A stretch of DNA of 22,025 nucleotides. Origin: Allomyces macrogynus ATCC 38327 (Eukaryota > Blastocladiomycota > Blastocladiomycetes > Blastocladiales > Blastocladiaceae). The number at the start of each line of letters is the position of its first letter. Within the stretch, counting starts at the first letter, position 1. The position numbers and the translations under genes are program-made. The stretch spans positions 1,515,724 to 1,537,748 of the forward strand of contig GG745333.1 in NCBI GenBank assembly GCA_000151295.1, in the 5' to 3' direction. The notes under the pieces are model-generated. The model ran no database searches. It was not told where the DNA came from and worked only from the letters and a program-made list of their open reading frames with translations. This document shows, in pieces, positions 1 through 20,935 of this stretch.

Positions 1-1760
1 TTCAAATCCGCCACATCCGCATCCGGGTTCGTCGCCGACAGCGGCAACAGCGCCGACGAAAACCACGTATCGAGCACGTCCTCGTCCTGCACCCACACCC
101 CACTGCCCTCCCTCTTCGGCACATCCTTGGCGACCACCCACTCGCCCTCCCCACCCGCGCGAAATGCCGGAATCCGATGCCCCCACCACAACTGCCGCGA
201 AATACACCAATCGTGCATATTCTCGAGCCACGTCCGCAACTCGCGGTCGGCCCAGGCATCCGCCAGCGTCAATTCGCCCGCATCGAGCTTAGCCAACACT
301 TTCTGCGCCATCGGCGCACACCGGACATACCACTGCGGGACGACGCGTGGCTCGAGAATATCGCCGGACCGGGAACATACGGCGAGCCGCATCGCGTGCG
401 GCTCAACGCGGTCGTACACGCCCGCCGTGGTCAACAATTCCACGACGCGCGACCGCGCCGCGAACCGGTCGATACCGACCAAGTCCGGCACGCCACACGC
501 GGGCGTCAGTCGGCCTTTCCCGTCAAACAAGTCGATCCAGGTGGTTTCGGCAATCGCATGCCGTTTCGCAATCTCATAGTCGTTGGCGTCGTGCGCCGGC
601 GTGATTTTCACCGCGCCCGTCCCAAACTCCGGGTCGACGTGGTCGTCAGCGACGACCGGGATTCGGCGGCCGGACAGCGGGTGGACCAAGTCGCGCCCAA
701 CGAGGTGCGCGTACCGTGCGTCCGTCGGGTGCACGGCGACCGCCGCGTCGCCCAACATCGTCTCGACACGCGTCGTCGCGACCGTCACGAATTCCCCGCC
801 ATTGGCACCGTCCGCGACGGGGTACCGGAAATAATGCATTTCGCCGACTTGCGCACTATGCCCGCTGGGGGTGGGCACGGCCGTCGGACCGTCAATTGTC
901 AGGTACTCGACTTCCATGTCGGAAATGGCCGTTTCGAGTGCCGGGCACCAGTGCACGAGCCGCGTCGCGCGGTAGATGAGCCCGCGGCGCGACAGTTCGA
1001 GAAACGCGTCGGTGACAATTCGGGACCGAGGGGTGTCGAGCGTGAAGTAGGCGTCGGACCAGGAAAACGAGGCGCCGAGCGCACGCAGCTGGTGGTGGAT
1101 GTGGTCGCCGTGTGCGTCTTTCCAGGACCAGACGCGCGAGAGGAAGGCGTCGCGGCCGAGCTCGTGGCGCGTTTTCTGGAGAAACGAAATGTTGATCAGC
1201 CTACGAGCGCGCCTTGCGAAACAAAGCACCAAGCGCACCCCTTCCGTCTTGGCCAACTGCTTCTCGACGACTGTTTGCGTCGCGATCCCGGCATGATCGG
1301 TGCCCGGGATCCACCGCACCGATTTCCCGTGCATATGGTGGTACCGCGCGATCGCGTCCTGGATCGCGGTCGTCAGCGCGTGGCCGCAGTGCAGTCGGCC
1401 CGTCACGTTGGGCGGCGGGAAGACCATGACAAAGTCGTCGTTATCCGTCGATGAACGTGGTGGGGTCGGGTCCTGCGCCCAGATCTGCTGCCATTTGGCC
1501 TCGATCGCGAGCTACGAACATGAGATCAGCATGGTCGAGGTGGTCGGTGGGTGATCGGTGTTGATTGAAGACCATACAGCTTGGTACGGCCCCTGGAGCG
1601 GGGAAACGGGCTCGGGGCTGGTCGTGCTGGTCCATCGTGCTGATGCGCATCGCCATGGTGCGGATCGGACGAGCGAGATGGCGGTGCAGCGCGTGGTTGG
1701 GCCGCGAGATGCCGAAGTTTGGCCCCGAACGGCCGATGCTGGTAACCTGCCGAACCACAT
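1..1760 (-). CDS. Valine--tRNA ligase, 5' part (3' end beyond window)
   Basis: Class I aminoacyl-tRNA synthetase that charges tRNA-Val with valine. Proposed exons on the minus strand are 1760-1578, 1511-1239 and 1175-<1, with introns of 66 and 63 nt; all joins are phase 0, and about 543 residues are present. The HIGH-type site reads PPPNVTGRLHCGHAL. It is followed by WIPGTDHAGIATQTVVEKQL, the editing-domain segment ITPAHDANDYE, and the hallmark blocks WCISRQLWWGHRIPAF and DVLDTWFSSALLPLS. The KMSKS loop and anticodon-binding domain would lie beyond the left edge. Exon 1 codes for about 60 residues rich in Arg, Ser and Thr with few acidic residues, which looks like a mitochondrial presequence. 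The start at 1760 was chosen because it gives a 61-codon exon in phase with a typical 66-nt intron. Identity is very secure; the exact start is inferred. Confidence 0.95.
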
Positions 1761-2049
1761 CTTGAACAGCTTGTGTTGGCCGCCAAAAATGGTGCTAGTC
1801 GTTATTGATCCAAAGCGACCAGTGCCGTCGTGGTAGTGCTCGAAATTTGGTACTTCTTTGTGCAGCTAGTAGAGCAGTTGTTGGTGGGGAGCAGGATTGC
1901 TGTGATCAACGGAGATCACCACACAAACTTGCAGATCAGCGCGGCTCTGCCAGAAAATACCATCAAAATCACCAAGTTGGACCGAGTTGGACCTCTCCAA
2001 CGGGAATCCAAACGCGCACATTCGCAGCGGGGTAGGTATAAGCATGTAC

Positions 2050-3333
2050 TCAAATTAAGCTGTCCATGCGCGCAAATACACTCAACACCGCGGCCACCAC
2101 CTCGAGCTGCGACACGCCATTGATCCGACACTCCTGGCCCGCGACCACCGAATCGTCCCACCGCGAAAACGCCGCCAACACGTCCTCGGCACGGGACCAC
2201 GCCGATTCCCGCTCCCCGAGCGTCGGCAATCGCGCGAGCACATTCTCCAAGACGTTCCCCGCATGCGCTGCCGCGACCAACGCAATCGTGCGCAACGGGT
2301 GCTCGCGGGCAGGCCAGTTCGCCGATCCGGGGTTCGTGCGCAGACAGGTGACGACACGGGCAACGACAGTTTCCTTGGCGGTCGCGTCGGCGACCGGGTG
2401 CGTGGCCATGTCGAAGAGGACGAAATTGCGTTTTTCGGTGCGCAGCACGCCCTTGTCGACGAGGCCCTTGGCAAGCCGTTCGCGCACTTGCCGCAGCTGG
2501 TAGGAGACGCGTAGAATGTTCCATGTTTCGCCTATGTGGAGACACCAGGGCAGGTGAGCGGGGGGCGGACACGGTCAGATTCAGATTCATACAGTACCAC
2601 TGAGCAGGTCCATCCAAGTCGCGACACCCCACGTCTCGCCGCGCGGTAAGCCCGCTGGTCCTGCTCCTGATGGTGCCGCCGCGCCATTGCTCGCCGGCGT
2701 CGTTGTCGCGGCGACAGGTTGGCCAGTAATTGCCGCGAACCCGGCCGTGACGGTGCCCGTGGCCCCACCGGTATAATTCCCGTCCTGCGTCTGCCGCATG
2801 AGCCTGAGCGTCTCGTCCAACAGCACCTCCCCCGTGGGACGCGTCGAAATGACGACAATCGGGCGGTCCTGGAGTGCGAGAAACCGGCGTTCGGGTGCAA
2901 GCACCATGGCAATTCGTCCACGCAGCGCAAGTTCCATGAGAATGCATCCGCGCAAAACGTAGGACAACGAGTCGTTCCAAAACGACAGATAACCCTGCTT
3001 ATCCTTGAGCCCGAGCAGCAACACTTCTTCCATGAGCGTGAGCCGTGGCGGGCGCGCGCCATCGTAGTCGAGATCGTCGCCCGCGAGGACCTCTGTCGGG
3101 TCGTAGGCGACGCGCTTGCCGTCGGCGGTCACGGCGGTGACAGACATGGCGCGCGCCGGGTGTGGTGCGGTTGAAGGGGCCGCGGAAGCGGAAAAGCCGG
3201 GACTCGACGCGGCGGAAGGGGTCGTCAGGTCCGGCTCGCTGCGGGTGCCGTCGCTCGTGAGCGCCGACAGGCCGCCGTAGCTGCCGCTGCCGCCGGCGCC
3301 GGTCCTGCGGCGGTGCGTGAGGCCGGCCGACAT
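2050..3333 (-). CDS. VPS74: Vps74/GOLPH3-family Golgi phosphoprotein
   Basis: Peripheral Golgi protein that binds PI4P and links Golgi glycosyltransferases to COPI for retention. Exons are 3333-2598 and 2531-2050, with one 66-nt intron splitting the Gly codon of LLSGETWN; the product is 405 residues. Family blocks are LTLMEEVLLLGLKDKQGYLS (98-117), SFWNDSLSYVLRGC with the Trp119 and Arg128 expected in the PI4P pocket, QLRQVRERLAKGLVDKGVLR (257-276) with the start of the beta hairpin, and NFVLFDMATHP. The start MSAGLTHRRRTG resembles the Arg-rich COPI-binding N-terminus of yeast Vps74, which supports Met1 over a later Met63. The end FARMDSLI resembles the yeast C-terminus. At 405 residues it exceeds the yeast protein (about 345) because of a disordered segment at 11-70 and a low-complexity insert at about 184-238. 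It lies downstream of no other gene on its strand except ValRS, 289 nt away. Confidence 0.96.
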
Positions 3334-3963
3334 GGTTGTGGTGCGCGTGACTCGTGACGGGGTTGGTCGAGGTGCGGATCAGGGCACGCAGTGCGGGCGG
3401 GCCGGGTGGGGCGATCCGAGGCGAGCGAGCGGGCGGGTGCGGCTGCAGCAACGGGTGCGCGTCAGGTGCAAATTGTGCGGGTGCGGCGGTCGCGACGGTG
3501 CAGGTCGCGGTAGGTGCTGGTGGTGGGTGGTACAGCGCCGTGGTGTCGACTCTCTTCCGTCGCGTCGGCCAGCGCAGCGTGGTGCAGCGAAGTGTGCCGC
3601 AAAAGGTGGCTGTCGTTGGCGGTTTGCGGCGGTTTGCGAAGGCCAAAATCCACTTTGGCTCGGTCACGTCACGACACGCGTTAGTCGAGTGCAACATGTG
3701 TGTCTGTTCCACGCTGTCTCGCACGCTCCCACGCGTCAGCCTGGCCGCTTGTCCGCGTCTTCACCCGCAAGCACGCCTGCCGGTCGAAGCCGACGACGAC
3801 GACAACGACAACGACGACAACGACGACAACAACAACGACGACAACGACAACGACGACAACGACGCCCTCGTCGCTCCCCGTTCCTTCTCTCCAGCTCGCT
3901 GCAAAGCACCCGCACTCAAGAGCCCCTGCTGCCCCAACTCACCCCCAACTCACCCCGACGACA
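3334..3963. promoter_or_regulatory. Divergent intergenic region between Vps74 and the M28 peptidase
   Basis: The two start codons face away from each other, so this 630-nt spacer must hold both promoters and both 5' leaders. I see no convincing TATA box. Its half next to the peptidase carries a CGA/CAA repeat followed by a C-rich stretch. The frame of the peptidase remains open back to an ATG at 3700, so part of this spacer could be coding in a longer isoform; I regard that as unlikely because the extension lacks domain character and would bury the signal peptide. Confidence 0.5.
3791..3864 (+). repeat. Imperfect CGA/CAA trinucleotide repeat
   Basis: About 74 nt made only of GAC and AAC-type triplets (units such as cgacgacaacgacaa). 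In the frame of the downstream peptidase it reads as uninterrupted Thr; in another frame as Asp/Asn. It lies about 100 nt before the chosen peptidase start, so it is most likely in the 5' leader. Such repeats are expected to vary in length between strains. Confidence 0.85.
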
Positions 3964-5742
3964 ATGTCCCGACGCCGTCAGTTCCCGCTCCTGGCGCTGC
4001 TCCTCGCCTTCGCCTTCCTGGGCCTCCAGGCCGCCGTGCCCGCGACTGCGCGCCATGCCGCGGCTCCGCTCGGCAACTACGGCGCGCTCGGTGACCAAGT
4101 CACCATCGCGCTCGCGTCTCCGAAGCAGCTGCTCGTCAACGGGCTCGCCATCTCCGACGTCGACCCGGCCGATACGACGCTCCTGGTCCTCGAACATGTG
4201 CCAATTGACGGCTCCGGCGCTCCTGAGCTCGTGAGCGCTGCTGCGTGGCACGACCAGACCGTGGCCGTGCTCGACCAGGCCACCGAGATGCTCGCGAGTC
4301 GTGAGCGCACGGAATCGCTTGCTCTGCAGTCGGGTGTCGAGACGTGGACGGCGGCACCGCACGTGCGCGTCGTTGCTGCGTCAGCCAACCGTGCGACGCT
4401 GGTCGTTGCTGTGCCCAAGGCCCGTGTCGCCCTGACTGAAGGTCGCGAAGTGGATCTCTCCGACCTTCTCCCGACGGCGGTCCTGCCCAACACGCGCGTG
4501 ACGCGCGTTGACGCCGACTCAGCCGCGACGACCGTGCGCTCGGCACCCGTGCCCGACCGGCTCGTCGAAGTGTTGCGCAAGCACAAGAAGCCGACCAAGG
4601 GGGATAAGCGAATTCGCGCGATGCTCAAGAAGACCACAATTCCGGAAATGCGCGCCGACGTTGAGTGGTTGACGGGCGAGGACCCAAACTCGCCGCTGAC
4701 CACACGGCATTCATTGAGTGAGGGCCATTTGGTCGCGGCAAAATGGATGCGCGAGCAAATGACCAAGTACGGGTGTGATCAAGTCGAGTTTATGGAGTTC
4801 CGCGACGGGTATGGACCGAATGTGATTTGCACGATTGAGGGCACGGATTTGCCGGACGAGCATGTGGTGTTGGGCGCGCACTTGGATTCGCGCGGGTCGG
4901 TGTTTTGGCCGTATAGCCGCGCGCCGGGTGGGGATGACGACGGGTTCGTGTTTCTCTTTTCGTCTTCATTTGTTGAGCCGTTCCTGACCGCACTGGGGAA
5001 ATCCAACAGGAGCGGCACGGCCATGATTCTCAACTTCATGCGCGTCTTGCACTCGAGCAGGCTACGTCTGCGCCGCACCCTCAAGGTCATCTCCTTTGCA
5101 GGCGAGGAGCAGGGGCTGATTGGATCCAAGGCCTACGCGCGCGCCGCTCGCGAGCGCGGCGATCGGATTACGTGGATGTTGCAGGGCGACATGCTCGCCT
5201 ACCGCAAGCCGGGTGAACCGCTGCAGTGCGGGTTGCCCGACCGGTACATGACGCCCGAGGCCAACTTGATCGTGCGCAAAGTATGTGGGGATGTTTGGCT
5301 CCTCGTTTCCGAGCGCGAATGCTAACCAGCATGAATTACGTATGTAGGTCGCGGAGGCGTACGTGCCTGAAGTGCAAGTCGGATCGACATCGGCGTGCTG
5401 CTCGGATCACCAGAGGTGCGTGGCGACCCTTGGATTGGTGCGACCCAGGACAATGTACTTACCGACGCGCGTGCTGCAGTTTCTTTGAGAACGGGTTTGC
5501 GAGCACGCAAATCTTTGAGCGCAACGGGCCGATTGCCGACCCAATGTACCACAACTCGGGCGACCTGGTGTGTCTTCCTCCCTGGTACCTTGTTTTCACG
5601 CATATTTTGCGGCAACTGATCGACATGGGACCGATTCTTGGTGTAGTCGCGCCGCACCGGATACGACTACGAGCAGTTGCAGGCGCTTGCGCGCGTCGCG
5701 CTGGCCACGACCATGGTCGTTGCCGAGATTGCCGAGCCATAG
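3964..5742 (+). CDS. Secreted M28-family zinc aminopeptidase
   Basis: Extracellular or vacuolar metallo-exopeptidase that removes N-terminal residues from peptides with two bound zinc ions. Exons are 3964-4943, 5010-5280, 5348-5415, 5480-5567 and 5647-5742; introns of 64-79 nt, one with a GCTAACC branch site; the product is 500 residues. Residues 1-29 form a signal peptide (basic start, hydrophobic core, AVPATAR). A weakly conserved pro-region of about 200 residues follows. The catalytic part has the zinc ligands and active-site residues in the M28 order: His306/Asp308 in GAHLDSR, an Asp in GGDDDGSGTA, Glu359/Glu360 in FAGEEQGLIG, Asp387 in LQGDM, and His438 in CSDHQSFFENGF. The end HNSGDLSRRTGYDYEQLQAL is typical of the family. 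The start at 3964 was preferred to an in-frame ATG at 3700 because it begins the signal peptide. It stops at TAG. Confidence 0.95.
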
Positions 5743-6265: not shown

Positions 6266-8474
6266 ATGTCCGGCACCTCGGCTCCGTCGTCCACCGCGAC
6301 CCCGGTCCTGCAGCGCCCCTGGGTGCTCGCGACGCTCGCCGTCGCCGCCGTCGGAATCGGGTACGCGGCCTTCTTCGACTACAAGCGCCGCGCCGACCCG
6401 TCGTTCCGCCGCAACCTGCGTATGTTGCTGCCTCCCGTCCCCGAGTCATCACGCGGCACGATGATTGACGTGACGACTTGCAATCAACAGGCAAGCAGCG
6501 CAAGCGCGTCGAGAAGAAGAAGACCGAGGAGGACTCCGCCAAGGCGCGCGATGTTGCCGCGTCGGGCGGCGCGGCCGACGGGCTCGAGGCCGAGATTGAG
6601 GCCCTCTTGAACGAGCCGCTGCCGACGACGCCCGAGGCCAAGGAAGCGTTTTTCATGGAGCAGCTGTCCAAGGGTGAGACACTCGCCAAGAACGGTACGG
6701 CGGCACGCCCCCAGTTTTTCATCACCTGCCGGATCCTCGGTGCGCCCCCCTAACCCCATCATTTTCCCGCTGATTGCAGGCCCCGAGTTCTTCAAGCTCG
6801 CCGCGGCTTTCTTCTACAAGGCGCTCAAGGTCTACCCGGCGCCCGCCGAGCTCGTCATGCTCTACCAGAAGACGCTGACGGAGCCCGTCTTCAACCTGGT
6901 CATGGGTTTCATCTCGTCCGAGGTCAAGAAGCGGCAGGAACAGTACTTTGTCTCGTTCCCGGACGCGTCAATGAACGTGCGTGTCGGTGAAGAGCCCGAC
7001 CCGAAGCGCAAGGCGCCCGACGGTACCCCGCTCAAGCGGCGCACGCTGATTGCCGCCAAGGACTTTGAGGCCGGCGAGACGATTTACGAAGAGGAGCCGA
7101 TTGTCGGCACGCTGAACCCGGCGTTCTTGCAGGTACGTGGTGCATTTACACGATCTCGCCGCTGATACGCGAGGCGCTCACGCTGACTCGGTGCCCATGT
7201 AGTCGGGCGAGCACTGCGCGCACTGCTTCAAGCCGACCGCGTGCGACGGCAAGGTCGAGTCGACGCGCACGGGCGCGACTTACTGCAGCAAGGCCTGCGA
7301 GGACATTGCCTGGGAAACCTACGAGTCCCTGCTCTTTGCCGACTACGCGCGTCCCGGCGGTTCCACCACGACCACCCTCGTCGCCGAATGCGCGACCGAC
7401 GGCGTGATCGTGCCGCTGCACATGGCGCGGTTCCTTGCCTACATGGTGCACGAAGACACCAAGAAGGCCGAGAACCCGGACGCCGACGGGTTTGGTGTCT
7501 GGGACCACATCGAACGGCTGCGGTACCTCGAGCTCACGCCCACGGCGATCGATGCCAAGTACATCACGATGCTGCAGACGCTGCTCGGCGAAAAGGTGCC
7601 CGGGCTCGAGGATTTCTTGACGCTCGAGCGGTACTTGCTGCTCAAGGGCAAGTTCCTCTACAACCAAATGGCTGTCGCTACGCGGCAGGTCGAGGCGCTC
7701 GTCGCCGCCGAGGCCGCTGCCGAGGCCGAGACCACCGCCGAGGCCAAGCCCGAGGAACCCGCGGCTGAGGAGGCCGAGAAGCCTACGGAGGTAATTGCTG
7801 CTGCTGCTGATCCGGCTCCGGAATTGGACGTGGAATCGCTCGCTGACGACGCCGACGATCAACAGGCTGATGACTCGCCGGCCGCCCTCCTCGAGGAAGA
7901 GGATACCAGTTCGGCGATTGTCGTCGAGGTCGAAAAGTCCGAGGACGATGAGTCCGCCGCGTCGGGCGACGCACAGGACGTTGCTGCCGACGCGGCCGAC
8001 GCCGAGACCCCCGCCGCCGAGGAGCCCGCCGCCGCGGAGGAGACCCCTGACGCGTCGACGGATGCGATCCCGGAGGCCACGGTCGAGGAGGCTGAGGAGG
8101 AGGAGGAGGTCAAGTCCAAGGAGGACGAGGAGAAGCCTAAGGTTGCGGTCCTCGAGCCGGAGCGGTCCGCGTCGGCCGCGGCCGCATCGACGGCTGCCGC
8201 GCTCTACCCGGTCTCGGCTTACCTGACGCACTCGTGCACGCCCAATGTCGAGGCCACGTTCCCGCGTAAGTCGCGCACGCTCGCGCTGGTTGCCAAGACC
8301 CCCGTGCGTGCCGGCGATGTGCTCATGACGGCGTTTGTGGATCTTGCATTGCCGTACGCTGACCGCAAGGCGGCGCTCGGCGCGGGCTGGCGCTACACGT
8401 GCGAGTGCGGGCGGTGCGCGGCGGAGGCGCCCAAGGAGGAGGAGGCGGAGGAGGAGGCCAAGGTCGACGAGTAA
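6266..8474 (+). CDS. Tom20-SET domain fusion protein
   Basis: Exons are 6266-6419, 6491-6694, 6780-7132 and 7203-8474, introns of 70-85 nt, product 660 residues. Residues 1-165 are a complete Tom20, the mitochondrial outer-membrane receptor for presequences: a membrane anchor at about 19-37, the FFDYKRRADPSFRRNLR segment, a basic/acidic helix, and the TPR-like core GPEFFKLAAAFFYKALKVYP (120-139). The frame then runs on into a split SET domain: GTPLKRRTLIAAKDFEAGET (201-220), a four-Cys zinc-finger-like segment (Cys242, Cys245, Cys265, Cys269), LTHSCTPNVEATF (578-590), AGDVLMTAFVDL, and the post-SET Cys cluster CECGRC. An Ala/Glu-rich insert (about 399-560) divides the SET halves. Fungal Tom20 is normally about 150-190 residues. 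The membrane anchor predicts that the SET part faces the cytosol. Exon 3 encodes both the Tom20 core and the start of SET, so the fusion does not rest on one predicted splice. Confidence 0.93.
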
Positions 8475-8689: not shown

Positions 8690-11600
8690 TCAGTCCATCG
8701 CGAGCACCGTCGCGTACGAGGTCGGAATCTGGCCAATGCGGCCGTTGACCGAGACTATGAGAGACGACGCGGAATGAGTGAGCAAAGAGAGCAAAGGGGA
8801 TGATCATGTTGCCGAGGCGAACGCGACGTCAACTAAGGGACAAAACACGAACCTTCCATCCACCCGTCCACGTCCTTCTTGAGCACCTCCATCAAGTCGC
8901 CTTCCTGCACCGACACTTCCTCGTCGTTTTGCGCTTGGTACGCGAAGAGCGCTTGGGCGAATGCTACGTACGGAACGGGCAGAGTTCGTGAGGGGTGCTG
9001 GAACCAGTCTCAATTGCGTCGAGTCAGATACGTACCCGTATCGGGTCCGACAGCACCAAAAACTTGAACGTAATTATGCGGGACAAAACCCTGCCGGCTG
9101 CCATGACGGACCTACGCGAAGATTTGACATGTCAGCTCACGCACGCCGGTGCTTTCGACAGGCACGAACGACAATACCTTGATCCACCCGTCACTCGGCT
9201 CGCCGCCATCGTCCGGGACCAAATGCACGACCTGGCCCTTGCGCAAATCGAGTTCGCTGCCGTCGGTCGCCTGGTACTCGTACAGTGCGACCGCACACGC
9301 CTCGGTCTTGCGCGGGGCCATCGCCGCCGCGTCCACCGTCTCGGTGAGCACTGGCGCTGACGCAGGCGCGGGCACATCGTCCACTTCGGATGGCGCGGCC
9401 GGTGCGGATGCGGTCGTGTAGTTCTCTCCACCCACTGCCGCCGTTGGTGCTGACGGACTCGCCACGGGCGTCGACGTGATTGCGACAGGCGCGGACGGAA
9501 TCGGCACGGGCGCCGAAATCGAAATCGATCCCAAACTCGACGAACTCGCATCGTCGCCGGCCGCGCGCGACGACGACCCTCCGCCGCGCAAGAACGCGCT
9601 CGCCTTATTCAAAAACTTGCTCCCGGACCCGGACGGCGACCGCTTGATCCCGGCATCGGCAGGGGCGGTGGGCGTGCTTCTGCCCGACGCCATCGACTTG
9701 GCCAGGACCGACTCGCCCTCGGGCTGGACGGATGCGGGTAAGACGACGGTTCTCGCGTCGATCGACATGTCGAGGCTCGGCGACTGCGCAATCGCGGGGA
9801 GAGTGAAACTCGGTTCCTTGCGCACGGGCGAGGACGGGGAGGAGAGGGTGTCGGCCGTGGAAATGACAGATTCGGGCCGGTTGATGGAGGGGACGGTGGC
9901 GAACGGGGTGGTCACGGTGGTCGGGGAGACGGGTTCGCTCGGGCCGCTCGGGGTGCCGGCTTTGGACCCAGGGCAGTTGGCGGGGACCTTCATTTCGCAT
10001 TTGGCGTGGCATGCAAAGCCGCAGTCTGGTGTCGGCAGCGGTGGGCGCGTCAGTACCGAGCAAATCCGGGTTGGCGAACGGAAAGCGTTGTGCAGTACCT
10101 TTGCATGAGAAGCCTTGCTTGGAGAGCCCCCAAATCGAGTTTTGGCAGTACCCGCACGTCGTCGGCAGCGTGAACCCGGTCGCCTTGAACGCGTGCGGGC
10201 GCTCGTGGCTCTGCTCTGAATCCACGATCAAGATCTGAATCAGTGCCTCAAACCGGGACCAAAACGGCACTCATCAACGCACCTCCAATCACGGCCGAAA
10301 TGGCTTCGATCACAGCCTCGCTGCGCTTGATGGAGCCTTGCGTCATGATCGCTTGGCGCTTGGCCTCCCACATTTCCTCGCGCGGTTCCGTCGGATCGCC
10401 GAGCCGCGGATCGTCCGTGTAGACGTTGGTCAGCTTGACGAGACCCGCGACCTTTTTGTCAAGCTGGTTCAGCGAATCGGTCTGCTCGGTGCGCGTCTTG
10501 AGGAGCTTGACGCGCTGGTTGCTCAGAACGACCCGGCAGTAATCGTCTTCGACGAGGTCGCTCTACAATGCACGACAGCCGTGTCAGAATCGCGTTTCAC
10601 TTCTCATTGCGTGGGTCAAAATTTGCGCACCGTATCACGCCAGAGCGTCGTCGGTTCAAAGTGCAAGTCGGCAATCTCGTGCCAATCCGACTTGTTGGCC
10701 TTGACAAACAGGTCGAGGTCGGCCTGCACGTCAATCGCCGCGACTTTGGCCCCAAGGTCGGTGAACTGCGCAGCAATCTTTTCGTTGGCCGCGGCCTCGA
10801 GCTTGGCGTGCGTCGCCATCACGTCCTTGAACGCCTTGAGCCGGATCGACTCGAGCACCTCCATTTCCTGCCGGTGGAGAAGTGTGAGAAGAGTGTTGCA
10901 AACACGTCTTCGACGGGAAGAAAAGGGGAAGGGGCGTACGTCGAGAACCCACGGAATGTCGGCGTTTTGGTGCGACCTGCGGTGCGCGTTGGCGACGGCG
11001 AGCGAGAGAATGTAGCCGTTCTAGAGTGGGATCGCGTCATGATGAGCGAGCTCCGTCACGCGAGTTGATGCGCGGAAAAGGTGCCGGAGAACACACCTTG
11101 GCGTTGTTCATTTCCAAGATTTGCTGGTGCCAGATTTTCTTGAGCTACACGTCGTCCGCCATCAGGAAAGAGCTGGCGGTCCGAGCACGACAAAATTGAA
11201 AACCGAATGGCTCCGCACCTTTTCCTGGCTCTTCTCGTCGGCGCGCTCGTACTTGAGCTTGGCGGCCTCGACGTCCTCGCACGCCTGCAAGTACTTGATT
11301 TTGGCCTGGTCAAAGTGGAAACGAGCAAGGTCGATGAGGTTCTTGGGTGTAGGGTGAAATGATCGCATCCAAGACGGCACGGACCTTGTCCTTTTCTTGC
11401 AGCGACCGCTCCTGCTCGGAGATCAGCTTGGAGGCAAAGGAGATGTGCTGGGTCGTTTGCAACATGCAACGTGAGTCGCATCGCACAATCGACCGATAAT
11501 CGCGAGCCGAAGCATGTGCACCTTGCGCCGGCTATCCTCGGTCCGCGTGCAAACGGTCTTCAATTGATCTGCGGGGTGGGCACGGCCTTCGTCGTCAGTA

Positions 11601-13335: not shown

Positions 13336-15221
13336 TCAACGCACAATTGGCACCACATCAAACAAAAACGACACCGACTCGCCATAATGAATCCGGCGAA
13401 TCGTCTCTGCAAACAGCGGCGCGACATCGAACACTTGGAACTTGTGGCTCGCCGCGGCCTTGCCCATGTGGCCCGCGTGAATTGCGGCGCGCAAATGGTC
13501 GGCTTGTGGGACCGTGTTGGACACGACGACGCGGTCAAGCGGCGCCGCCATGAGCCGCTCAATCGCATCGCTCGAGAAAATCCCATGCGTCACGACCGCA
13601 TATACCTTGGCCGCACCGTGTCGGACGAGCAGTTCGCTCGCGGTCGCGATCGTGTGGCCCGTGTCGATCATGTCGTCAATGACGATGGTCGCCTTGTCAG
13701 CGACGCTGCCTACAAGCGTCGGTTCGGCGGTCGCGTGCCGCCGGTCGTTGTGGATCAGGGCAAAGGGCAGCTCAAGCGCGTCGGCGATGGTCGTTGCGCT
13801 ATCCACGGCCAAAGCAAAGGTGAGTCCACCGGAAAGCGTTCTGCGAAAAGATCAACAAAAAAAGGAGACGTACCGCTTGGCACCACCCGAATCGGGTGAC
13901 ACAATAACCGCGTCCTGCCACGCCGGAATATGCTCGACAATGTACTTGTGCATGAGCGGGTAACTCGACAAGTTATCAAACGGAATGTCGAACAAACCCA
14001 TAAACTGCGGGTGGTGCAGGTCCATCGTGATAATCTGGTCAGCACCCGCCGATACGAGCATATCCGCAATCAGCGTCGCCGGTTTCGCGTTCCACACCTG
14101 GTACTCGGGCCCACCCTTCCCACCCGCAGCGCGCCCACGGTCCATGGACCCGACCGACATGCCGCGGATCGGCGACGGCGCACGCGACGGTGCACGCGAT
14201 TGCGCCCTCGACGGCGCGCGCGAATTGGCGCGCGATGCCGGGACCGATACCGGGTGCGGGAACGGCACGCCACCCTGCATCTCAACGAGTTTCGCGCACG
14301 CGTCGTTCGAGAGCCGCGCGATCGGCATGCCGTTGCGCATGTAGGGCGTCTCCGGCTGCCGCGCGTACGGGAACAACGGCATCACGACCGTGACGCGGCG
14401 CGCCGATGCCGTCTTGCACGCCGCGAGCAAGATCAGCAGCTCAATGAGCTGGTCGTTAACGGTGCCGCACGCCGATTGCACGACGAACACGTCCATGCCT
14501 CGCACCGATTCCTGGATTTCGACGCGCGTCTCATTGTTGGAGAATTTGGCGCGTGTCACGTCGCCCGGGCGTAGGCCGAGACGGTCGCAAATGGCCGCGG
14601 TCAGGTCTGGGTGCGACGAGCCGGAGAGAACGATCAGGTCGCGCATGCGCGTCGGGCGGAGCCGTTTTTCCGGTTCTGCTGCTGCAGCGGCTGCAGCGGG
14701 CGGTGGGGAGGAGCGATTATCGGCTCGCGGTTCGGGTGTCACGGGTTGAGGGGCAGGAGTCGCGGTCTGCGGTTCAGATGTGGAATCCTTGGTCGGAAGT
14801 GGTACGGCTGGTGCTTGGACTGGAGCAGGTACATCGATCAAACGGCCGGCCCCAGCACCAATGGGATCCTGATGCATCGTTGCAATCCTCATGGTGAGCG
14901 AATCGACTCATGTTTGAGTGATCGGATATGAGATCTACGCACAAAACTCGCCGGTGCTGGTTCATGCTGCACCGCTGCAGATTCCGCGGCCTTGGTCACG
15001 GCGGGCGCAAACGTTGGTGCGGTTGGCGACGATGATGGGCTCGTCGTGAGCTCAATCGACCGGACACTGTGCGCTGGCTGCACGACTTCAATACTGATCT
15101 CGCTTGATGGCTCGTCGAGCACTTCCTTGATGGACGCGGGAGGGCTCGGCGTGCCAAACTGGTCGACTGATTTCCAGCGCGAAATATTCAAGAGCAACTT
15201 CTTGACAAACTTGGGCTTCAT
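13336..15221 (-). CDS. Ribose-phosphate diphosphokinase (PRPP synthetase) with long N-terminal extension
   Basis: Transfers diphosphate from ATP to ribose 5-phosphate to make PRPP for purine, pyrimidine, His, Trp and NAD synthesis. Exons are 15221-14943, 14868-13874 and 13798-13336, introns 74 and 75 nt, product 578 residues (typical about 320-430). The catalytic part starts near residue 168 (DLIVLSGSSHPDL) and has the family blocks KFSNNETRVEIQESVRGMDV, SACGTVNDQLIELLILL, VMPLFPYARQ, TMDLHHPQFMGLFDIP, IVSPDSGGAKR and the PRPP loop IVIDDMIDTGHT (463-474). The end IRRIHYGESVSFLF is typical. An insert of about 89 residues (264-352) follows FPYARQ and contains an SRAP-type repeat; fungal heteromeric Prs subunits are known to carry inserts. 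The first exon, starting MKPKFVKKLLLNISRW, is joined because the frame, branch site and splice sites agree; a shorter start inside the second exon cannot be excluded. It stops at TGA. Confidence 0.95.
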
Positions 15222-18888: not shown

Positions 18889-20935
18889 ATGTCGACCACC
18901 GCCGCGCGCTTTGGCCGCGCTGTCGCCGTGGCCATGGTCGCGACGCTCGCGCTCTTCCTACTCGCAAGTTCAACCGCCTCTGCGCGCCCGGCGTCACGCC
19001 CAAGCGGATCTTCCGCGACGTCCGGCGTGGCCGGCACGCCCGTCTGCGTCGACTCGAAGCTCTGCGTCTCCATGGTGCCCGCCAACAACGGCGCGAGCGT
19101 TGACGTGACGATCAACACGACCGTGGCCGGGTGGGCCGGGATTGGGCTCGGGTCGTCCATGAGCAACGCCGACTGCCTCGTGCGTCTTTTCTTCCTGTGC
19201 TCCGCCCACGTGGGAAACGGCCCATCCTGACACCAGCTGGAATCGCGCCGATGTAGATGGTCTGGAAGGACAGCTCGGGCAAGTGGACCGTCTCGCGGCG
19301 GTACGCGACATCGCACGACCTGCCCACGGCTGCGTCCTCGCAAAACGTGCAAATCGTGGCCAGTTCCGCGTCGTCCGTGACGGTCCGCCGGCCGGCGACG
19401 CTCTCGGCAAGCGCAAAGGACCAGTCGTTCTCGAATAGCTCGCAGTCGTTTATTTGGGCCTATGCGACGTCGGCCGTCTCCGGGTCGAATTTCGCGCGGC
19501 ATGTCGCCGAGGGGTCGTTCTCGTATAATGCCCTGACGGCTGACGCGTCGGGGTCGGACGCCAAGGCGGCCAGTGATACTTCGGTGACGGGGTCGGCGAC
19601 AGGGTCCAATGCGACAGCGGCGTCGTTAAGCGGAATGCCCGTCGTGTGCCCGTCGTCGAAATTGTGTGTGGCCATGGGGATCGTGCCGGGGAACACGTCG
19701 TTCGTGGACGTGTTGCTCAACACGACGATTTCGAGTGGGTGGATTGGGATCGGGATCGGGTCGAGTATGAAGAGTGCCGATGTTTTGGTTCGTATTTTTG
19801 CACGTTCCGCTTCCTCGATGGGCTTAACTGACTCTCCAACCACGCGTTCAACAGATGGCGTGGCGCGAAAACAATCAGTGGGTCGTCTCGCGCCGGCACT
19901 CGACGGGCCACGACACGCCGTCGCCCGCGACCAAGCAAGCGATTCAGGTTGTCGCGAGTACCGCGTCGACCGTGACCGTGCGCCGGCCCGTGACCCTGAC
20001 CGCCAGCTCAGGCGACCAGTCGTTTACGAATTCGTCGCAAACGTTCATTTGGGCGGTCGCTGACGGCGTGGCCGCGTCGACGGGTAACCTGGGTATGCAC
20101 CGGTCCGAGGGCACGTTTGTGTACAATGCGTTTTCGGCCGAGGGGACGGCGGCGAGCGCGGATCAGCGCTCGACGATGATTGCGGTGCACGGCATTTTGA
20201 TGGCGGTTGCGTGGTCGTTTTTGTCGTTCATGGGGTACGTTTTCAAGAGATCGGGTGGCAACCGTGCGGAGATCCTAACCAGCGCGCCCAATGTCTTGCA
20301 GAGTCTTTGCCGCGCGCTTCCTCAAGAACAAGTGGCCCAAGACGTGGTTCCCTGTGCACCGCGCGCTCCTCGGTCTCGCCGTCCTGCTCACGATTATCGG
20401 GTTCGCCGTCATGGTGGTCGCAACCGACGGCAACCACTTTGGCGGGCTCCACGGCAAGATTGGGCTTGCCGTCACGGCCGGTTGCTTGGCGCAGGGCATT
20501 CTCGGGTTCTTGATTGACCGGTGGTTTGATGCGAACCGCACCGAAGTGCCGTGGTGGGACAAGCTTCACTGGTACCTCGGATACCTGGTCGGGCTCGGTG
20601 GCCCCGTGAACGTCGTCCTGGGTCACTTGAAGAACGACACGGCGACGTGGCTGCTCACGGTGAATGTGGCGGTCATGGGCGTGTTTGTGATTGCGTTTAT
20701 CTGGGGGCAGGTCACGCTTGGCCAGGTGCGTCTTTCTTTCGTTTACCGCACACGGACTCGAACTTGAGCTGATCAAGTCTGTTCTGTGTTCCATGTGTAG
20801 CAACACGAACACCAAGCAATGCCGCTCGTCGACAAGAATGGGTCGGCCGACCGCGACCAGCTCGGCGCGAACGCTGCGGCAGGACCAACTGGTGACCAGC
20901 ACGGTTCGACCGACGTGATTGCGCCGCGGCCGTGA
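18889..20935 (+). CDS. Two-DOMON cytochrome b561 membrane protein
   Basis: Probable transmembrane electron-transfer protein (CYBDOM type): extracellular DOMON domains that can bind haem, followed by a cytochrome b561 core. Exons are 18889-19179, 19257-19787, 19855-20234, 20302-20725 and 20801-20935, introns 67-77 nt, product 586 residues. Residues 1-33 form a signal peptide. DOMON1 (about 49-215) has GIGLGSSMSNAD and FARHVAEGSFSYN; DOMON2 (about 228-366) has GIGIGSSMKSAD and GMHRSEGTFVYN; the Met and His are the expected haem ligands. The b561 part has five hydrophobic helices between 382 and 536 with His386, His420, His451 and His490 in positions suited to two haems. The tail (543-586) is hydrophilic and ends at TGA. 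A similar gene follows directly, so this is one member of a tandem pair. Confidence 0.93.

Follow-up and report, generated by a model that had tools for sequence, protein, structure and literature searches.

Judged from its sequence, an Allomyces macrogynus gene at positions 6266–8474 of the window (a stretch of 22,025 nucleotides, positions 1,515,724 to 1,537,748 on the forward strand of contig GG745333.1) encodes the mitochondrial import receptor Tom20 and a SET domain as one gene in one reading frame. The SET part, of the split SMYD type and joined to the C-terminal end of the Tom20 receptor core, is probably catalytically dead, with a binding role in Allomyces. We infer a pseudo-methyltransferase in the cytosol that works by binding instead of catalysis.

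Spliced from the window DNA, four exons on the + strand join in frame to give 660 amino acids and a stop. The product (computed mass about 71 kDa) has 100% identity and coverage with the public protein AMAG_04388 (P0001, 660 aa) from the 54 Mb A. macrogynus genome. The introns, all GT..AG, measure 71, 85 and 70 bases, the second and third lying exactly where an earlier note, made from the letters of this DNA, had placed them (6695–6779 and 7133–7202). Exon 1 (6266–6419) encodes the N-terminal end with its membrane anchor, a helix at roughly residues 18–43; exon 2 (6491–6694) the basic linker and the beginning of the Tom20 core; exon 3 (6780–7132) the remaining TPR-like core, a connecting helix (residues 154–178) and SET-N; and exon 4 (7203–8474) the SET-N end, half-MYND finger, SET-I, acidic linker, SET-C, post-SET and stop. 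Exon 3 alone thus reaches from the Tom20 core into SET-N, as the note had read it. It is very improbable that the joined model is wrong and that Tom20 and SET come from different transcripts: exon 3 covers both parts, the same join recurs in several early fungal lineages, and a second copy in the genome (locus C30) fits the same splice structure.

The Tom20 part proved complete, as had been claimed. Pfam MAS20 matches residues 25–161 (6338–6904, with introns 6420–6490 and 6695–6779 inside) across anchor, linker and core (profile positions 3–131 of 132), scoring 123.8 bits where the cut-off is 27, and the family profile matches Chaetomium Tom20 with 161 bits. The predicted model has an N-terminal helix at 18–43, whose start is hydrophobic by composition. 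The Tom20s of Chaetomium thermophilum (PDB 9i7s_K, 185 aa) and Neurospora crassa (P0156, 181 aa) stop after the receptor core, whereas the Allomyces protein adds about 480 residues. Like other Tom20s, it would lie in the mitochondrial outer membrane. Passages of PMC12305020 on fungal TOM structures describe the Tom20 receptor domain as C-terminal, with a hydrophobic pocket that takes targeting sequences; the added domain would stand in the cytosol next to the presequence pocket. The cytosolic placement proposed in the earlier note therefore stands, provided that the Tom20 part behaves as elsewhere, since SET lies C-terminal to the receptor core. Tom22, Tom70-like and Porin_3 (Tom40 or VDAC) genes are also present in the Allomyces genome, so the SET part looks like an addition, not a substitute.

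The Pfam SET match (residues 560–609) scores 26.4 bits against a cut-off of 22.4, and the domain is interrupted by a MYND-type finger, as in the split SET-MYND lysine methyltransferases SMYD1, SMYD2 and SMYD3; structure comparison finds the SMYD fold in predicted models of the fused protein. The zinc finger noted earlier is there (7206–7361), but only four of the eight zinc-ligand places of a MYND finger are kept (C242, C245, C265 and C269), while all eight are kept in 47 of 67 family rows. Of the SET motifs, the post-SET cysteines C637, C639 and C642 are present, as is motif C582, but the catalytic motif is altered: THSCTPN (residues 579–585) stands where SMYDs have NHSCxPN. This motif lies in the SET-C and post-SET piece (8172–8426), with TAFVD (613–617) and the CECGRC of post-SET. 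An acidic linker (7692–8171, residues 401–560; 56 D/E against 8 K/R in 160 residues, mostly low-confidence in the predicted model) separates SET-C from the helical SET-I region (7362–7691).

Residues that hold a cofactor analogue in SMYD2 include Lys17, Arg19, Asn206, His207, Tyr258 and Phe260 (structural passages of PMC3125274). The window protein keeps Lys, Arg and His at the places of Lys17, Arg19 and His207, and has Thr579 for Asn206, Trp633 for Tyr258 and Tyr635 for Phe260. Its SET-N cofactor loop, PLKRRTL (residues 203–209, 7028–7048), has Leu and Arg for the first two glycines of SMYD2 GKGRGL, and Phe615 takes the place of the catalytic Tyr240. SMYD2 Y240F and SMYD3 Y239F have no activity (mutant data in PMC1524980), and SMYD3 changes at G15, G17 and H206 abolish activity (mutant data in PMC3136521). 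In comparison with SMYD1, SMYD2 and SMYD3, then, catalytic and cofactor residues are replaced and half of the MYND ligand places are empty, a membrane anchor and Tom20 core stand in front, and the C-terminal TPR-like domain that follows post-SET in the SMYDs is lacking: the last post-SET Cys is 18 residues before the end of the protein, and the best SMYD2 alignment stops at SMYD2 residue 293, in chains of 414–438 residues.

Joined MAS20 and SET, for which the earlier note had suggested an architecture search, turned up widely. We searched proteins first with the window protein and afterwards with profiles of the family; these searches, each scoring only the roughly 8000 candidates with most shared words, gave 21, 49 and 531 matches, with 120 of the 531 listed. 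They yielded at least 67 distinct fused-type proteins longer than 300 aa, some partial or without SET-C, a lower bound because only word-sharing candidates were scored. By the names of the matches listed, the genera are Allomyces, Blastocladiella, Catenaria, Sorochytrium and Paraphysoderma (Blastocladiomycota), Fimicolochytrium, Phlyctochytrium and Rhizophlyctis (chytrids), Syncephalis and Smittium (Zoopagomycota), and Mortierella and allies, arbuscular fungi, Mucorales, Calcarisporiella and Bifiguratus (Mucoromycota-type); no named basidiomycete occurs among the 120 matches listed. One member filed under the plant Anthurium amnicola (P0035) is 81% identical to P0040 of the arbuscular fungus Funneliformis mosseae and most probably comes from a fungus in the sampled plant. 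The Smittium simulii protein (P0056) bears a very long acidic, Ser-rich insert within the MYND finger.

The Asn-His pair of the motif is kept in none of the 61 family rows that have letters there (6 of the 67, partial or diverged, have no letter at the Asn place and were left out). At the Asn place, Gly stands in 18 rows, Ser in 15, Met in 9, Thr in 6, Ala in 5 and Leu in 2, with Gln, Trp, Tyr, Val and Cys once each; the lone Asn, in P0043, is followed by Asn, not His, and among the 44 rows that keep the motif His none has Asn. Erosion is greatest in the Mucorales, where the motif is so changed that its alignment is uncertain: the motif His is mostly gone, and motif Cys and post-SET cysteines are kept in no row. 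The predicted SMYD fold persists in members even where the motif is gone. For comparison, of 20 other SET matches in the Allomyces genome that cover the motif, 14 keep NH; the regions compared represent 21 of 26 SET matches, one of which stops short of the motif, and the matches are not independent because several form near-identical pairs. By this comparison NH loss is uncommon but not unique in the genome.

Losses of catalytic residues are accompanied by constraint on the domain. Five SET-I residues (H339, G371, Y381, K385 and N391) are invariant in 54 of 54 rows. A match of H339 to SMYD2 His137, a ribose contact, was considered, but we make no such claim. From one gene pair, with bootstrap ranges computed, dN/dS (the ratio of nonsynonymous to synonymous substitution rates) is 0.017 for SET-I, 0.062 for SET-C with post-SET and 0.27 for the acidic linker; SET-N, SET-I and SET-C all fall far below the linker, and by these ratios the SET pieces are under purifying selection. 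Stronger constraint on the SET pieces than on the Tom20 part was considered and dropped: the bootstrap ranges overlap, and only the difference from the linker stands.

Several observations weigh against a non-catalytic, selected SET part. Many members outside Allomyces keep the Tyr (42 of the 63 rows with a letter), the motif His (44/61) and the motif Cys (42/61), so some of them may have remained enzymes; 64 of 67 rows retain the Arg that contacts the carboxylate of the cofactor in SMYD2, so that cofactor binding could persist; NH is absent from 6 of the 20 other Allomyces SET matches that cover the motif, and PRDM9 is among the SET enzymes active without NHSC. With two Rhizopus members added, K385 becomes only nearly invariant. 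The dN/dS values come from a single pair, the SET range and the Tom20 range (0.122, 0.024–0.303) overlap, the MYND piece is less constrained (0.22, 0.043–0.803), and dN of SET-C (0.027) exceeds that of Tom20 (0.016), the SET-C ratio being low because its dS is high. In an LG+G4 tree of the MAS20 region, short Mucorales Tom20s nest within the fused Mucorales clade (bootstrap 97), and likewise in a mixture-model tree at lower support (92/77), while an AU (approximately unbiased) test leaves a grouping of all short forms in one clade unrejected (p 0.245).

The earlier note had suggested that the SET part might modify import substrates, ribosomes or TOM subunits. Methylation of these through a non-canonical cofactor site would fit the retained predicted fold, the kept Arg and Tyr, the post-SET cysteines (41–43 of 67 rows), the low dN/dS of SET-N, SET-I and SET-C, and the chytrid proteins P0066 and P0067, which keep all scored places apart from Asn and the glycine loop. 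In the window protein, however, the residues needed for methyl transfer in SMYD2 and SMYD3 are replaced (Asn, two loop glycines and the catalytic Tyr, with Trp for the second Tyr), and its exchange of Tyr for Phe is the one that was made in the laboratory to inactivate both enzymes (mutant data in PMC1524980). With Asn-His lost in all 61 members that have letters there, the idea of substrate modification is not supported; we consider an active methyltransferase improbable and, from the sequence, catalysis in Allomyces unlikely, while chytrid and Mortierella members could be catalytic.

The history of the family bears on whether the SET part is instead a passive leftover. Among the 120 matches listed are 17 fused-type proteins and 103 short Tom20s (161–195 aa), the named ones presumably mostly Ascomycota, with Mucorales included; Ascomycota Tom20s in this set are short. 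Both forms occur together in Apophysomyces ossiformis, Gongronella butleri and Cunninghamella blakesleeana, and tentatively in Radiomyces spectabilis, four Mucorales. Fused proteins come in pairs in at least three species of the Mortierella type, namely Dissophora ornata, Gamsiella multidivaricata and Lunasporangiospora selenospora: the motif reads MHSC or WHSC in one protein and SHSC in the other. The trees, built from 41 of 170 proteins without an animal outgroup, favour loss of SET within the Mucorales but do not show it.

A six-frame MAS20 search of the whole Allomyces genome gave eight matches, all scored, at three loci (the window, C30 and C37), and translated comparison finds a SET part behind Tom20 at C30 and C37 too, the last piece weak on C37. 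With 8/8 candidates at SET-bearing loci, that search revealed no separate SET-less Tom20, the full-length protein whose presence the earlier note had set against a fusion. The C30 locus holds a close copy, for which our splice model gives the same four exons and 658 aa; the public model (P0004, AMAG_20465) has 633 aa and so seems to omit part of the acidic linker. Allomyces is polyploid, and the C30 copy may be a homeolog. The C37 copy (L009, about 1656–3110) is divergent (30–46% identity by piece), and with its SET end spread over several frames it looks disturbed there, either spliced or decaying.

A tolerated, slowly eroding remnant of an old fusion would account for the stepwise losses in the Mucorales rows, the SET-less short Tom20s beside fused proteins in some Mucorales, the short Ascomycota Tom20s and the disturbed C37 copy. 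It is hard to reconcile with the dN/dS of SET-N, SET-I and SET-C far under that of the linker, five SET-I residues unchanged across 54 rows and a predicted fold kept after motif loss, and we judge such a relic improbable.

A non-catalytic docking or precursor-binding role appears the most likely. Most likely the SET part would offer a docking surface next to the groove for presequences, where segments of precursors could bind, or else a partner from the cytosol, for example a chaperone or a nascent-chain complex. A bolder proposal, to which we give little weight, is that early fungi had a two-headed Tom20, its presequence groove joined by a dead SMYD, a design later given up in Ascomycota and in one of the two Mucorales Tom20 forms. 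The peptide groove of the SMYD and its cofactor pocket, kept in part (the Arg in 64 of 67 rows, the invariant SET-I residues), would take up segments of precursors or some SAM-like ligand and in this way tune import.

The architecture itself is already known. Ding et al. (2022) sorted 3816 fungal SET genes, and their Group 25, with none in Ascomycota, has MAS20 upstream of SET (PMC9692433), a trait which the window protein shares, as compared by description. Their section on Group 25 gives the fusion one sentence; in the main text 'import receptor' is absent and 'mitochond' occurs once, and the relevant sections make no mention of active-site loss. Among the open-licence papers listed in our searches, we found no other account of a Tom20-SET fusion. 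Relative to that searchable literature, what appears new is that catalytic residues are lost, that the domain is constrained and that it sits in a Tom20 context.

Elsewhere in the window, Pfam matches mark a Golgi phosphoprotein 3 (GPP34) domain (2590–3333, − strand, 83.7 bits), a peptidase M28 domain (3700–5322, +, 65.5 bits), an SH3 domain (9115–9993, −, 27.2 bits), a ribose-phosphate pyrophosphokinase N-terminal domain (13855–14892, −, 121.8 bits) and a weak match, slightly under the Pfam cut-offs, to a DOMON or cellobiose dehydrogenase cytochrome domain (19257–20060, +).

Some fused members are filed under labels like SET domain-containing protein and histone-lysine methyltransferase (e.g. 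P0039), and our evidence argues against methyltransferase-type names as functional labels. What is known of Tom20 structure and function comes from animals and Ascomycota, in which the receptor is small. If an older fungal Tom20 bears a selected SMYD pseudoenzyme, the TOM complex of yeast and Neurospora may be reduced and not the fungal norm. The family also offers a natural series of pseudo-methyltransferases, running from the nearly intact chytrid proteins P0066 and P0067 to the strongly eroded ones of Mucorales, and along it the loss of catalysis and the gain of a binding role could be studied.
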